A DNA stretch of 64,000 nt from Bacteroides sp. ET71 (GTDB taxonomy: Bacteria; Bacteroidota; Bacteroidia; Bacteroidales; Bacteroidaceae): positions 1-64,000 of the forward strand of contig NZ_JAMBLS010000012.1 of the NCBI RefSeq assembly GCF_023336905.1. The letters are read 5' to 3'. A program made the position numbers and the translations under genes. Numbering within the stretch: position 1 is the stretch's first letter; every line of letters starts with the position of its first letter. Of the stretch, positions 16,342 to 24,946 are shown in pieces. The notes under the pieces were generated by a model. That model was not told the DNA's origin and searched no databases. It was given only the letters and a program-made list of their open reading frames with translations.

Positions 16342-16380
16342 TGTCCGTTTGCGGACAGGGGAATTGTCCGATAACGGACA
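16342..16380 (+). promoter_or_regulatory. Two identical palindromes, likely activator-binding sites (UAS)
   Basis: TGTCCG-N4-CGGACA occurs twice, at 16342-16357 and 16365-16380. The centres are 23 bp apart (about two helix turns), so both face the same side. They lie 55-85 bp upstream of a sigma-54 promoter, as expected for a dimeric enhancer-binding protein. The regulator encoded downstream at 18233 is the natural candidate. Confidence 0.8.
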
Positions 16381-16411
16381 CCTCCCCCTCTCAGAAGCCA
16401 TTCTGGGCACT

Positions 16412-16426
16412 TGGCATGGTCTTTGC
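16412..16426 (+). promoter_or_regulatory. Sigma-54 (RpoN) promoter
   Basis: TGGCATGGTCTTTGC matches the -24/-12 consensus TGGCAC-N5-TTGC: the GG at 16413-16414 and the GC at 16425-16426 are exactly 10 bp apart. The predicted start near 16438 leaves a 5' leader of about 23 nt before the ATG at 16461. Confidence 0.88.
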
Positions 16427-16460
16427 CTGACGATGGGAGAACATTGTAAAGATAGAGAAC

Positions 16461-17948
16461 ATGAGAAAGATTTTATTCCTGGCCGTTTATCTGTGCATGC
16501 CCTTGGCAGTGTGTGCCCAAGCGGACACGTTGGGATACGAACGCGACATTACGTTGGACGAAGCCATTGCTTTGGCGCGGGTGCAGTCGGTAGATGCGGC
16601 TGTGGCCTTGAACGAATTGAAGACCGCTTATTGGGAATACAGGACGTTCCGGGCTAATCAGTTGCCGGAGGTGACCTTCACGGGGACGATACCCGACTAC
16701 GGTAAGTCGTACAATTCCTATCAGAACTCGGATGGTTCGTACACCTTTGTGCGCAACAGTACGCTGGGCATGTCGGGGCAACTTTCCGTCACGCAGAACA
16801 TCTGGCTGACGGGAGGAACGCTGTCGCTGAACTCGTCGTTGGACTATCTGCGCCAGTTGGGCAGCGGGGGGACCAGGCAATTCATGTCCGTCCCCGTCAG
16901 TCTGCAACTGACGCAACCCATCTTCGGGGTGAACACCATCAAGTGGGATAGACGCATCGAGCCTGTGCGCTATGCCGAGGCCAAAGCTGCGTTTATCACC
17001 GCCACCGAGGAGGTGACGATGAGCACCATCACGTATTTCTTCAACCTCCTCCTGGCCAAGGAGAGCCTGGCCACGGCGCGGCAGAACAAGGAGAACGCCG
17101 ACCGCCTCTACGAAGTGGCCAAGGCCAAGCGCAAGATGGGGCAGATATCGGAGAACGACTTGCTGCAGTTGAAGCTCAACGCCCTGCAAGGGAAGGCTGA
17201 CGTGACGGAGGCGGAGAGCAACCTGAACGCGCAGATGTTTCAGTTGCGCTCGTTCCTGGGTGTTTCCGAGCAGGAGAACCTGAACCCCATCGTGCCCGAA
17301 GCCGTGCCCGGCATCAACATAAGCTATGACGACGTGCTGGCCAAGGCCCTCGAACGTAACTCGTTTGCGCAGAACATACGCCGCCGGCAGCTCGAGGCCG
17401 ACTACCAGGTGGCCACAGCCAAGGGAAACCTGCGCAGCATCAACCTCACGGCCAGCATCGGATATACGGGGATGAACCGCAACTTCCGCTCGGCCTATGA
17501 CAACCTGGTGGACAATCAGGTGGTGGAAATCGGTTTCTCCATCCCCATCCTGGACTGGGGCAAACGGCGCGGGCAGGTAAAGGTGGCCAAGAGCAACCGC
17601 GAGCTGGAACTGTCGCGCATCAAGCAGGAGCAGATGAACTTCAACCAGAACATCTTCCTGCTGGTGGCCAACTTCAACAACCAGGCTCAGCAGCTTGGCA
17701 TAGCCGAAGAGGCCGACCAGATTGCCGAGAAACGCTATAAGAGCAGCGTGGAGACCTTCATGATTGGCCGCATCAGTACCCTCGACCTGAACGATGCCCG
17801 CGACTCGAAGGACGAAGCGCGCCAGCAACACATCTCCGAGCTTTACTACTATTGGTATTATTTCTACCAAATCAGAAGCCTGACGCTTTGGGATTTCGAG
17901 CGCAACACAGCTTTGGAAGCCGACTTCGAGGACGTGGTCAGACGCTGA
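16461..17948 (+). CDS. TolC-family outer-membrane efflux protein
   Basis: A 495-residue precursor with signal peptide (MRKILFLAVYLCMPLAVCAQ). It has two repeats of the outer-membrane-factor fold with long helical coiled-coil stretches (RQNKENADRLYEVAKAKRKM, LLQLKLNALQGKADVTEAES) and the second-half landmark VVEIGFSIPILDWGKRRGQV. It would form a trimeric channel across the outer membrane and periplasm for an ABC or RND pump. No pump or HlyD-type adaptor is adjacent, so its partner is encoded elsewhere. A sigma-54 promoter and paired palindromes lie upstream, and the regulator and kinase follow. Confidence 0.93.
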   Translation: MRKILFLAVYLCMPLAVCAQADTLGYERDITLDEAIALARVQSVDAAVALNELKTAYWEYRTFRANQLPEVTFTGTIPDYGKSYNSYQNSDGSYTFVRNSTLGMSGQLSVTQNIWLTGGTLSLNSSLDYLRQLGSGGTRQFMSVPVSLQLTQPIFGVNTIKWDRRIEPVRYAEAKAAFITATEEVTMSTITYFFNLLLAKESLATARQNKENADRLYEVAKAKRKMGQISENDLLQLKLNALQGKADVTEAESNLNAQMFQLRSFLGVSEQENLNPIVPEAVPGINISYDDVLAKALERNSFAQNIRRRQLEADYQVATAKGNLRSINLTASIGYTGMNRNFRSAYDNLVDNQVVEIGFSIPILDWGKRRGQVKVAKSNRELELSRIKQEQMNFNQNIFLLVANFNNQAQQLGIAEEADQIAEKRYKSSVETFMIGRISTLDLNDARDSKDEARQQHISELYYYWYYFYQIRSLTLWDFERNTALEADFEDVVRR

Positions 17949-18194: not shown

Positions 18195-18202
18195 TACTTT
18201 TG
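18195..18202 (+). promoter_or_regulatory. -7 element of the two-component regulator genes
   Basis: TACTTTTG matches TAnnTTTG. Transcription would start near 18209, so translation starts at the ATG at 18233. The stretch 17949-18194 holds no gene. Confidence 0.6.
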
Positions 18203-18232: not shown

Positions 18233-19591
18233 ATGATACTGATTATTGACGATGACAACATCGTGCGCTCCTCGCTGCTGTTCATGCTGAAGCGGGCGGG
18301 CTACGAGGCCAAAGCCGTCACCGGTCCCCGCGAGGCCATGGACGTGGTGCGCGTCGAGGCGCCGGAACTGATACTGATGGACATGAACTTCTCCCTGTCC
18401 ACCAGCGGCGAAGAAGGGCTGACGCTGCTGAAGCAAGTCAAGTTGTTCCGTCCCGACGTGCCGGTCATCCTGATGACGGCCTGGGGCAGCATCCAACTGG
18501 CCGTCCAGGGGATGCGTGCCGGAGCTTTCGACTTCATCACCAAACCCTGGAACAATGCCGCCCTGCTGCAACGCATCGAAACCGCCCTCCAGCTTTCTCC
18601 ACCCTCCGCCGGGACTCCGGCCGGGCCCGCCTTGAAGCTGGACAGGGGCCACATCGTGGGCAGCTCGAAGGGACTGACAGCCGTGCTGGACACCGTGGCC
18701 CGCATTGCTCCCACCAACGCCTCCGTGCTGGTCACAGGCGAAAGCGGGACAGGCAAGGAACTCATCGCAGAAGCCATCCACCGCAACAGCCGCCGGGCCT
18801 CGCAGCCCTTCGTCAAGGTCAACCTGGGCGGCATCTCGCAAAGCCTCTTCGAAAGCGAGATGTTCGGCCACAAGAAAGGTGCCTTTACCGATGCCGTGGC
18901 CGACCGCACGGGGCGTTTCGAACTGGCAGACCAGGGCACCATCTTCTTGGACGAGATTGGCGACCTTGACCTCTCGTGCCAGGTGAAGCTGCTGCGCGTG
19001 CTGCAAGACCAGACATTCGAAGTGCTGGGCGACAGCCGGCCACGCAAGGTCAACGTGCGGGTCGTCTCGGCCACCAACGCCGACCTGCGCCGCATGGTGG
19101 GTGAGCATACCTTCCGTGAAGACCTCTTCTATCGCATCAACCTGATAACCATCCATCTGCCGGCCCTGCGTGAACGCCGCGAAGACATACCGCTTCTGGC
19201 CCGCCACTTTGCCGACCGCCAGGCCGAGGCAAACGGCTTGCGCCGGACGGACTTTTCGGCCGACGCCCTCCAATTCTTGTCCGCCTTGCCCTATCCCGGC
19301 AATATCCGCGAACTGAAGAACCTGGTGGAACGCACCATCCTGGTCAGCAACAAACCCGTGCTGGATGCAGCCGACTTCGAAGCCCAATACCAGCCCCGCG
19401 AGGCAGGTGGGAGCCCGGAGAAAACAGGCGCTTTTGCCGGCATGACATTGAACGAGATTGAACGGCAGACCATTTTGCAGACCTTGGACTCGTACAAAGG
19501 AAATCTGACCCAGGTGGCTGCGGCATTGGGCATCAGTCGGGCTGCCCTTTATCGCCGCTTGGAGAAGTATGGGATTAGTGTAAACGATTAA
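18233..19591 (+). CDS. Sigma-54-dependent response regulator (NtrC family)
   Basis: A 452-residue enhancer-binding protein. Domains: receiver at 1-120 with the phospho-acceptor aspartate in LILMDMNFS and lysine in ITKPW; AAA+ domain at about 145-385 with Walker A GESGTGKE, Walker B TIFLDEIGDL and arginine-finger region FREDLFYRIN; Fis-type helix-turn-helix at the end (NLTQVAAALGISRAALYRRLEKYGI). The sigma-54 contact loop reads GAFTDA instead of GAFTGA. It probably binds the palindromes before the TolC gene and opens the sigma-54 promoter. Its kinase follows after 12 bp. Confidence 0.95.
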   Translation: MILIIDDDNIVRSSLLFMLKRAGYEAKAVTGPREAMDVVRVEAPELILMDMNFSLSTSGEEGLTLLKQVKLFRPDVPVILMTAWGSIQLAVQGMRAGAFDFITKPWNNAALLQRIETALQLSPPSAGTPAGPALKLDRGHIVGSSKGLTAVLDTVARIAPTNASVLVTGESGTGKELIAEAIHRNSRRASQPFVKVNLGGISQSLFESEMFGHKKGAFTDAVADRTGRFELADQGTIFLDEIGDLDLSCQVKLLRVLQDQTFEVLGDSRPRKVNVRVVSATNADLRRMVGEHTFREDLFYRINLITIHLPALRERREDIPLLARHFADRQAEANGLRRTDFSADALQFLSALPYPGNIRELKNLVERTILVSNKPVLDAADFEAQYQPREAGGSPEKTGAFAGMTLNEIERQTILQTLDSYKGNLTQVAAALGISRAALYRRLEKYGISVND

Positions 19592-19603
19592 AAACAACGT
19601 CGC

Positions 19604-20920
19604 GTGCGCATCAAGTTTTTCTTTTTCATACTTGTGCTTTTGCTGTTGGGGCTGGGCATCTATTGGGGAATTATCAGCCGCGACATCCCTCGCCTCTATC
19701 TCGTTTTGGGCGAAGGAGCTGTCATCCTGATTCTTTTCTATCTGTCCGTCTTCTACCGCAAGATAGTGAAGCCGTTGAACAGCATTGGCAACGGCATGGA
19801 CCTGTTGCGCGAACAAGATTTCAGCAGCCGCCTCAGTCCGGTAGGGCAGTATGAAGCCGACCGCATCGTGAACATCTTCAACCGCATGATGGACCAACTG
19901 AAGAACGAACGCCTTCGGATGCGCGAACAGAACAGCTTTCTCGAATTGCTGATTCAGGCCTCGCCCATGGGAGTCATTATCCTGAACCTGAGCGAAAAAA
20001 TCTCTCAACTGAATCCGATGGCCGTGAAGATGCTGGGCGTACATGCCGATTTAGCCGTCGGCAAACAACTGAAAACGCTGGACTCGTCCTTGGCTGCCGA
20101 ACTGGATACGATTGACAACGAAGAAACCAAAATCGTGCGTCTGAACGATGCAAACGTCTACAAGTGTACCCGTTCCTATTTCATTGATTGTGGCTTCAAG
20201 CACCCCTTCTTCTTGATAGAGCGGATGACGGACGAAGTGATGCGTGTCGAAAAGAAAGCCTACGAGAAGGTTATCCGCATGATAGCCCACGAGGTGAACA
20301 ACACGACGGCCGGCATCACTTCAACGTTGGATACCGTGGAACAGACTCTTGCCTCGGAGCAGGGCATGGAAGACCTCTGCGAAGTCATGCGTGTCTGTGT
20401 GGAGCGCTGCTTCTCGATGAGCCGTTTCATAACCCGCTTTGCCGATGTGGTGAAGATTCCCGAACCCAACCTGGTGCCGTTGTCTTTGAATGAGATGGCG
20501 GCCACTTGCAAACGCTTCATGGAGGGCATGTGTGCCGATGCCGGAATCAGCCTGACGTTGGAGTGCGACGAGCTGGCCAGGCCAGTCAAGATGGATGCGG
20601 CACTTTTCGAGCAAGTATTGGTGAACATCATCAAAAACGCAGCCGAGAGCATATCTTCTTCTGAAAGCGCGCGGCAAAACGGGCAAATCATCGTGCGGAC
20701 GCAGTCTCCTGCTTCTATCGAAGTGGTGGATAACGGGCCGGGCATCAGCAAGGAGGTAGAATCGAAGCTGTTCACCCCTTTCTTTTCCACCAAACCCGAT
20801 GGACAAGGCATCGGCTTGGTTTTCATCCGCGAAGTGTTGAGCAAGCATGGTTGTACATTTTCCTTGCGCACCTATGCCGACGGATTGACACGTTTCCGCA
20901 TCCTCTTCCCGTTTCCTTGA
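19604..20920 (+). CDS. Membrane sensor histidine kinase, partner of the NtrC-type regulator
   Basis: A 438-residue protein with two N-terminal transmembrane helices separated by a very short outer loop (about residues 5-25 and 30-50). A HAMP-like linker (KPLNSIGNGMDLLREQDFSS) and a PAS-like domain (LELLIQASPMGVIILNLSEK) follow. The H-box is RMIAHEVNNTTAGI. The ATPase has an N-box (VNIIKNAAESI), G1 (EVVDNGPGI), F-box (FTPFFSTK) and G2 (GQGIGL). The tiny outer loop suggests it senses membrane or cytoplasmic cues rather than a periplasmic ligand. The start is GTG at 19604, 12 bp after the regulator, so one operon is likely. Confidence 0.94.
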   Translation: MRIKFFFFILVLLLLGLGIYWGIISRDIPRLYLVLGEGAVILILFYLSVFYRKIVKPLNSIGNGMDLLREQDFSSRLSPVGQYEADRIVNIFNRMMDQLKNERLRMREQNSFLELLIQASPMGVIILNLSEKISQLNPMAVKMLGVHADLAVGKQLKTLDSSLAAELDTIDNEETKIVRLNDANVYKCTRSYFIDCGFKHPFFLIERMTDEVMRVEKKAYEKVIRMIAHEVNNTTAGITSTLDTVEQTLASEQGMEDLCEVMRVCVERCFSMSRFITRFADVVKIPEPNLVPLSLNEMAATCKRFMEGMCADAGISLTLECDELARPVKMDAALFEQVLVNIIKNAAESISSSESARQNGQIIVRTQSPASIEVVDNGPGISKEVESKLFTPFFSTKPDGQGIGLVFIREVLSKHGCTFSLRTYADGLTRFRILFPFP

Positions 20921-24670: not shown

Positions 24671-24946
24671 TTATTTTTTCACTGAAAGAGTGAAAGTCTT
24701 GGCAGGTTTAAAGGCCGGAATATTGTGTTCCGGAATAATGATAGTAGTGTTCTTAGAAATGTTGCGAGCGGTCTTTTGTGCTCTTTTCTTCACAATAAAA
24801 CTGCCAAATCCGCGGAGATAAACGTTCTCATCTTTTGCTAAAGATGATTTTACTGCCTCCATGAACGCTTCTACAGTTGCAAGCACAGTGACTTTGTCAA
24901 TCCCGGTGTTTTTTGTAATTTCGTTTACAATATCAGCTTTAGTCAT
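24671..24946 (-). CDS. HU/IHF-family DNA-binding protein
   Basis: A 91-residue nucleoid protein with the family fold: helical N-terminus (MTKADIVNEITKNTGIDKVT) and beta-arm region (VYLRGFGSFIVKKRAQKTAR-NISKNTTIIIPEHNIPAFKPAK). It bends and compacts DNA. It is the first gene of the HU / small basic protein / rng group, with its own promoter box about 50 bp upstream. Confidence 0.96.
   Translation of the reverse strand: MTKADIVNEITKNTGIDKVTVLATVEAFMEAVKSSLAKDENVYLRGFGSFIVKKRAQKTARNISKNTTIIIPEHNIPAFKPAKTFTLSVKK

Follow-up and report, generated by a model that had tools for sequence, protein, structure and literature searches.

A TolC promoter of Bacteroides sp. ET71 that very probably belongs to a dispersed sigma-54 regulon for a MacAB-TolC-like exporter

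The promoter of a TolC-family gene in Bacteroides sp. ET71 very probably belongs to a dispersed sigma-54 regulon that serves a MacAB-TolC-like exporter. The gene lies within the first 64,000 nucleotides of contig NZ_JAMBLS010000012.1 (assembly GCF_023336905.1), and this whole stretch is referred to as the window. In the mechanism that we propose from the sequence, an intramembrane-sensing kinase would respond to an envelope-stress signal and phosphorylate the adjacent NtrC-type regulator, which would bind tandem TGTCCG-N4-CGGACA operators and, by means of its AAA+ domain, open sigma-54 polymerase at a -24/-12 promoter. One operator would drive TolC and, on other contigs of the genome, a MacA-like adaptor together with two FtsX-type permeases, a LolD-like ATPase accompanied by a DUF2807 protein, and another DUF2807 protein. 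The parts of a tripartite ABC exporter, presumably for envelope-damaging molecules, would in this way rise together though their genes are no longer adjacent. At most promoters with an operator 60 bp upstream, DNA bending at an IHF-like site would bring the activator to the polymerase; TolC promoters of the window type have no such site, and their operators are placed 47 and 70 bp upstream. The regulator and kinase genes would be read from a housekeeping promoter, and the pair would be ready to sense. The operators, their spacing, the promoters, the gene partners and the co-occurrence are observed in sequence; binding, phosphorylation, the part played by IHF, the stress signal and the exported molecules are proposals built on them.

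The initial annotation described a textbook sigma-54 promoter with two identical palindromes upstream of an orphan TolC gene. The twin operators and the -24/-12 element with GG-N10-GC spacing are found letter for letter (Table 1), with GG at 16413-14 and GC at 16425-26. The operators are separated by 23 bp from start to start, and are identical in their 6-bp arms, but not in their N4 loops. Similarly, "textbook" is appropriate for the -24/-12 element but less so for the promoter as a whole, which lacks the IHF-like element of most 60-bp siblings. The element ends 34 bases before the TolC ATG (16461), the transcript start is predicted near 16438, and a -24/-12 element is also present upstream of orthologous TolC genes. 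The score of the TolC protein is under the cut-off of TIGR01844. There are no exact operators in the window other than the TolC promoter pair; with up to two mismatches, seven places match compared with 2.63 expected, and 2 of 100 shuffles reach seven.

Table 1. Positions of the promoter elements and genes discussed; positions with the prefix C4, C18, C28 or C29 are on other contigs of the same genome.
Feature	Position	Strand	Basis and remarks
Distal operator TGTCCG-N4-CGGACA, TGTCCGTTTGCGGACA	16342-16357	.	Exact; starts 70 bp before TGGC of the -24 element
Proximal operator TGTCCG-N4-CGGACA, TGTCCGATAACGGACA	16365-16380	.	Exact; starts 47 bp before TGGC
Spacer without IHF-like site (variant class)	16381-16410	+	
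Sigma-54 -24/-12 element TTGGCAT-N5-TTGC, TTGGCATGGTCTTTGC	16411-16426	+	Exact GG-N10-GC
TolC-family outer-membrane channel, 495 aa	16461-17948	+	Pfam OEP 1.8e-43, two stretches
Housekeeping-type -7 box of the regulator/kinase pair, TACTTTTG	18195-18202	+	TAnnTTTG match
NtrC-type response regulator (receiver, sigma-54 AAA+, Fis-type HTH)	18233-19591	+	Pfam
Sensor histidine kinase (HAMP and PAS-like domain, GTG start)	19604-20920	+	Pfam
HU/IHF-family protein	24680-24946	-	One of the two strongest matches in the genome
Promoter before the adaptor gene	C29:7641		Exact operator; TTGGCAC-N5-TCGC; spacing 60 bp
Promoter before the LolD-like ATPase gene (with DUF2807 gene)	C29:3101		One-mismatch operator; TTGGCAC-N5-TTGG; spacing 61 bp
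Promoter before the second DUF2807/Toastrack gene	C4:98891		TTGGCAC-N5-TTGA; spacing 60 bp
Exact operators besides the window pair	C29:7626, C4:98891, C18:6189		Five in the genome with the window pair
rpoN	C28:15324-15797		The one PF04552 gene

Contig C29 carries, all on one strand, genes for a HlyD/MacA-like adaptor, two FtsX-type permeases, an ABC ATPase and a DUF2807 protein. As anticipated from the palindrome in the window, the same operator followed by a -24/-12-like element precedes partner pump genes at two promoters on C29, and it also precedes one DUF2807 gene on C4. All three sister promoters have an imperfect -12 element (TCGC, TTGG and TTGA, respectively), and an IHF-like motif that matches 8, 9 and 8 of 9 positions is placed 19 bp before TGGC. 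The site before the C4 gene is found in this genome only, and the encoded DUF2807/Toastrack protein has relatives of solved structure. With respect to the kind of partner, proposed to be of HlyD/ABC/RND type, a MacA/FtsX-type ABC pump is found and an RND pump is not. An RND adaptor/pump operon preceded by a -24/-12-like string at C24:37601-37616 (L062) has no operator, and was rejected as a member.

All components expected for a tripartite exporter are present according to Pfam, i.e., adaptor, MacB_PCD/FtsX permease, ATPase and TolC, and we infer that they assemble into one pump. The likeness to MacAB-TolC lies in the adaptor, the ATPase, TolC and an FtsX-type permease with the MacB core domain, which is carried by the first permease on C29; the difference is that the ATPase and two unlike permeases are encoded here by separate genes, and that the parts reside at separate loci. 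Because the scores for the MacA and MacB equivalog models are far under cut-off, the exporter should be regarded as kin by type, and not as MacAB itself. The strongest alternative, although we consider it unlikely, is that the exporter maintains lipids or lipoproteins and is not a stress or peptide pump, with a kinase that senses envelope growth. The ATPase has a high LolD score (236 bits, under the cut-off of 307.75), and one permease gives a weak score with the LolCE model. However, the best-scoring model for the ATPase is darobactin export (255 of 375 bits, also under cut-off), of the eight solved structures matched by the first permease, seven carry the name MacB or YknZ, and the combination of adaptor and TolC suggests a tripartite exporter. 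Taken together, the family models, the MacB structures, the DUF2807/Toastrack proteins and the short-loop plan of the kinase favour an envelope-stress exporter, an assignment that we make with moderate confidence.

A sigma-54 activator and its kinase do follow the TolC gene, as had been noted, and the regulator is likely to be the activator that binds the operators. Its best named match among the matches listed is from Candidatus Bacteroides merdipullorum (94% identity). The loop by which sigma-54 activators contact the sigma factor has the canonical sequence GAFTGA. This sequence is present in 1 of 81 orthologues of the regulator, and 78 of 81 have GAFTDA, which is a natural variant of the activator loop. 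Like the imperfect -12 elements of the three sister promoters, this departure speaks against the proposed mechanism. Inspection by eye places two hydrophobic stretches and a very short loop within about 57 residues before the HAMP domain of the kinase, and among the 77 orthologues with the juxtamembrane motif (79 examined), 76 have its end at residue 54-61. By this predicted topology, the kinase is of the intramembrane-sensing plan, and such kinases are tied to envelope stress in other phyla.

The genome has five strong matches to sigma-54 activators, one of which is partial. Since three of them are full-profile activators other than the regulator, the link between regulator and operator rests on co-occurrence and adjacency. 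The partial match (C43:15678-16064, L042) is part of a 289-aa open frame and spans positions 39-167 of the domain model. With these other candidates at hand, the palindromes might be sites of a different regulator, either a repressor or another sigma-54 activator, while the adjacent pair controls something else; we find this improbable. In a scan of 201 genomes of the family, 24 operator+promoter sites were found in 22 genomes (one in the control), and a regulator orthologue, defined by at least 62% identity over its length, was found in 53 of the 201. Paralogues of the regulator have 40-44% identity, and a fragment with 59% identity is present in one other genome. All 22 operator genomes hold the orthologue (hypergeometric 3.7e-15 with kinship ignored, and kinship contributes to the co-occurrence as the genomes are not independent of each other); 31 of the 53 regulator-bearing genomes have no site under the family-scan pattern. 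The sites were not selected by gene, and all 24 precede genes of the pump; by tblastn, the downstream gene encodes the adaptor in 18 cases, TolC in 4, and the ATPase and a permease in one each, the last in genome G457, where the site is 292 bp before the permease match. A scan of 295 genomes of the order, stricter at -12, gave seven sites in four genomes and none in the control, with TolC as target in four (two of these being the window's own pair), the adaptor in two and the ATPase in one. Furthermore, the main operators are located 46-71 bp before the -24 element, a position typical of an enhancer-binding protein and rarely of a repressor.

The loci of relatives were taken from the best 80 of at least 571 confirmed regulator orthologues. 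Because these loci were chosen by regulator, their gene content near the regulator is as expected, which does not apply to the genome scans. TolC is present in 69 of the 80 loci, as in the window, and this adjacency also argues against a different regulator. An operator+promoter precedes TolC in 50 of 81 loci; in the remaining 20 of 70 TolC loci, the pair precedes the adaptor in 8 and the ATPase in 1, and is found nowhere in the locus in 11. The search for pairs set mismatch limits on operator and promoter, demanded the -24 bases, allowed at most one mismatch in -24/-12, and left the spacing between operator and TGGC free over 40-75 bp. In 1.80 Mb of loci it returned 122 pairs, region repeats included, compared with none in the reversed sequence of these loci.

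Within the range allowed, the spacings fall only at 46-47, 58-61 and 69-71 bp, the last in 22 of the 122 pairs (window and repeats included). Two promoter classes can be distinguished. The 60-bp class comprises 69 unique promoters, before TolC (30), adaptor (28), ATPase (7), permease (3) and DUF2807 (1) genes, such that one operator is common to all five kinds of gene. The 21 unique promoters of the 46-47-bp class all precede TolC; counted with repeats (24), 22 have both operators and 2 have the proximal one only. The GG-N10-GC spacing is observed in 17/21 and 51/69 promoters of the 47-bp and 60-bp classes, respectively, in a set that allowed up to one mismatch. In the 60-bp class, a weaker second operator (at most 5 mismatches of 12) is located exactly 19 bp upstream of the first in 45 of 67 promoters, against 0-5 at each other offset from 8 to 45. 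Tandem operators are thus common to both classes, and the pair at 47 and 70 bp in the window appears as a shifted form of the same arrangement. In a tree of the regulators, the two classes of TolC promoter require 2 changes compared with about 16 in shuffles; all 20 rows of the 47-bp class, including the window, are placed in one group of 39 rows (support 91/90, not starred) that also contains 5 rows of the 60-bp class.

The IHF-like motif divides the two classes. In regulons of NtrC-type enhancer-binding proteins, it is common, though not a rule, for IHF to have a site between the activator sites and the -24 element. WATCAR-N4-TTR is the Escherichia coli IHF consensus as given in PMC3897727, and is given with A for R in PMC5963220. 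In the 60-bp class the motif is complete in 25 of 69 promoters and matches at least 8 of 9 positions in 54, compared with means of 0.2 and 4.0 (maxima 2 and 10) when the spacer letters were shuffled 500 times, and in 51 of the 69 the site is exactly 19 bp before TGGC. By gene, at least 8 of 9 positions match before the adaptor in 26/28, TolC in 18/30, ATPase in 5/7, permease in 2/3 and DUF2807 in 1/1. The motif is absent from all 21 promoters of the 47-bp class, even at 7 of 9 positions. As the motif had already been spotted when it came to be tested, and the sequences tested are related and overlap with those in which it was spotted, these counts describe the pattern rather than prove it. IHF may have a role at the 60-bp promoters. 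The genome has 14 matches to the HU/IHF family, two of them strong, and the protein encoded in the window is a candidate for binding the site.

Two sigma factors are probably involved. In Bacteroides, TAnnTTTG is the housekeeping -7 box, and the TTTGC of the -12 element might be part of such a box, in which case the promoter would not be of sigma-54 type. We judge this very improbable. TTTG is present in 21/21 and 50/69 promoters of the two classes, and overlap between the two patterns does occur, since the string before the RND operon on C24 (TATCTTTG / TTGGCATTATCTTTGC) fits -24/-12 and TAnnTTTG equally and is ambiguous as to sigma factor. The -24 bases, which the scan demanded, cannot count against the housekeeping reading. 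However, none of the 90 unique promoters has TA at the required place relative to -12, and within 150 bp before TolC, TAnnTTTG is found in 2 of 68 loci (best TolC match), compared with 4.6-4.7 in shuffles. The initial annotation had named a sigma-A type transcript start as a finding that would speak against its proposal, and such a promoter is not indicated before TolC by these counts. In contrast, 69 of 80 loci have TAnnTTTG no more than 110 bp upstream of the regulator, where shuffles give 5.0. With the box frequent before the regulator and rare before TolC, expression of the sensor pair is probably constitutive, and that of TolC probably inducible. In 26 of the 69 boxed loci (window, L067-L146), a mere 12-17 bp separate the start of the box from the ATG of the regulator, which suggests nearly leaderless regulator transcripts.

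Chance, in the sense of a GC-rich genome that throws up palindromes and -24/-12-like strings, is compatible with the modest excess of single exact operators (five in the genome of 3.63 Mb, one for the reversed pattern) and could explain the exact operator on C18, but is a negligible explanation of combined sites that are seen at fixed spacings in both Bacteroidaceae and Tannerellaceae and are absent from the reversed sequence of the loci. The number of single operators exceeds chance moderately at most, and with up to two mismatches the genome has fewer of them than the control (193 and 252, respectively), so loose matches were rejected as regulon members. It is therefore the pair of operator and -24/-12 element, together with its conservation, that counts. 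Bare -24/-12 strings are not informative: YTGGCAYN5TTGCW occurs at 6 places (6 in the control) and TTGGCAN6TTGC at 17 (6 in the control). Scans of this genome that fixed the spacing and tolerated as many as three mismatches gave 13 matches each (controls 6 and 3), from which the three with 0-1 mismatches were accepted; no further operator+promoter site with 0-1 mismatches was present in these scans of the whole genome. A two-mismatch match at C12:16291-16357, on the opposite strand of a window operator, was rejected as noise, and 14 of 15 one-mismatch operators (the exception being C29:3086) were rejected for want of a -24/-12 pair, many of them lying inside genes. The exact operator at C18:6189-6204 (L049) was rejected because it has no -24/-12 pair at the usual spacing, and is probably a chance occurrence; a short gene whose product is rich in glycine lies close to it.

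Mechanisms of this kind are already known. At the orp1 and orp2 promoters of Desulfovibrio vulgaris, the activator DVU2106 acts together with IHF and sigma-54 (PMC3897727). Like the 60-bp promoters, orp1/orp2 have palindromic activator sites and several operons per activator, and where the 60-bp promoters have an IHF-like site, orp1/orp2 have an IHF site between the activator sites and the sigma-54 element, at about -42/-43. The IHF sites there matter by mutation, but at orp1 the functional one is at -79, and not at -42 (PMC3897727). The phylum, activator and targets are also different, the role of IHF is here a proposal, and the promoter of the window is without the site. Closer in phylogeny, sigma-54 control of COG0577 FtsX-type ABC permeases in Bacteroidia has been predicted statistically, and was called first evidence (PMC12316311). 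The sigma factor, permease type and class are the same as here; the earlier prediction was made from statistical promoter scores, and TolC, IHF, UAS and COG1538 are not mentioned in its main text, and no operator or activator is named in the available sections. The view that sigma-54 targets are little described in this phylum must be qualified accordingly, as control of FtsX-type permeases was already predicted there. In Flavobacterium psychrophilum, sigma-54 promoters have been mapped at protein-quality and envelope-stress genes, and one operon was tested by mutation (PMC9723704). This is the same phylum with -24/-12 promoters, but the targets are different, and no operator or activator is assigned in the available sections of that report. 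None of the iron-responsive TolC genes of Bacteroides thetaiotaomicron in the available part of PMC10434189 could be tied to the present regulon, and they were rejected as members. No literature that names the operator, the activator or the TolC link in Bacteroidales was found in a search whose coverage of subscription journals was thin, and we tentatively take the regulon, the operator and the two promoter forms to be without earlier report.

Similarities are also noted to stress modules of other bacteria. LiaS has the short-loop kinase plan. DUF2807 has been classed together with Toastrack, which is known to accompany PSP/Lia stress systems, and Lia/PSP modules likewise contain a two-component system with DUF2807/Toastrack partners (PMC11237479). 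The difference is that the output here would pass through sigma-54 and an NtrC-type regulator. A wider reading, to which we give somewhat less than even weight, is that kinase, sigma-54 activator, scattered exporter and DUF2807 proteins, joined by one operator, may form the Bacteroidales counterpart of the Gram-positive Bce/Lia circuits, and that the two architectures, IHF-bent at 60 bp and IHF-free at 47/70 bp, may let one activator produce outputs that differ between TolC and the pump. For gut Bacteroidales, the analysis provides a sigma-54 regulon in which activator, operator, spacing rule and targets are all named, and which is directly testable. It illustrates how a single operator can keep scattered pump genes under common control, and the two promoter forms provide a natural system in which IHF-type and IHF-free activation by one activator can be compared.

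The description of TolC as an orphan is valid for its position in the window, but not for its relatives in general. Among 50 loci of at least 20 kb, the adaptor or the first permease is present in the same locus in 25, and no pump gene is near in the other 25; linkage between pump and TolC is far from universal. In 12 loci viewed for extra operators, the pump genes run straight into TolC, regulator and kinase in 8 (L090, L100, L101, L103, L119, L126, L138 and L141), are apart from them in three (L085, L127 and L131) and are divergent in one (L108). At the Bacteroides fragilis locus L084, TolC has a good -24/-12 element whose operator-like sites, about 205 and 224 bp upstream, do not fit the usual classes, and the ATPase has a 61-bp promoter.
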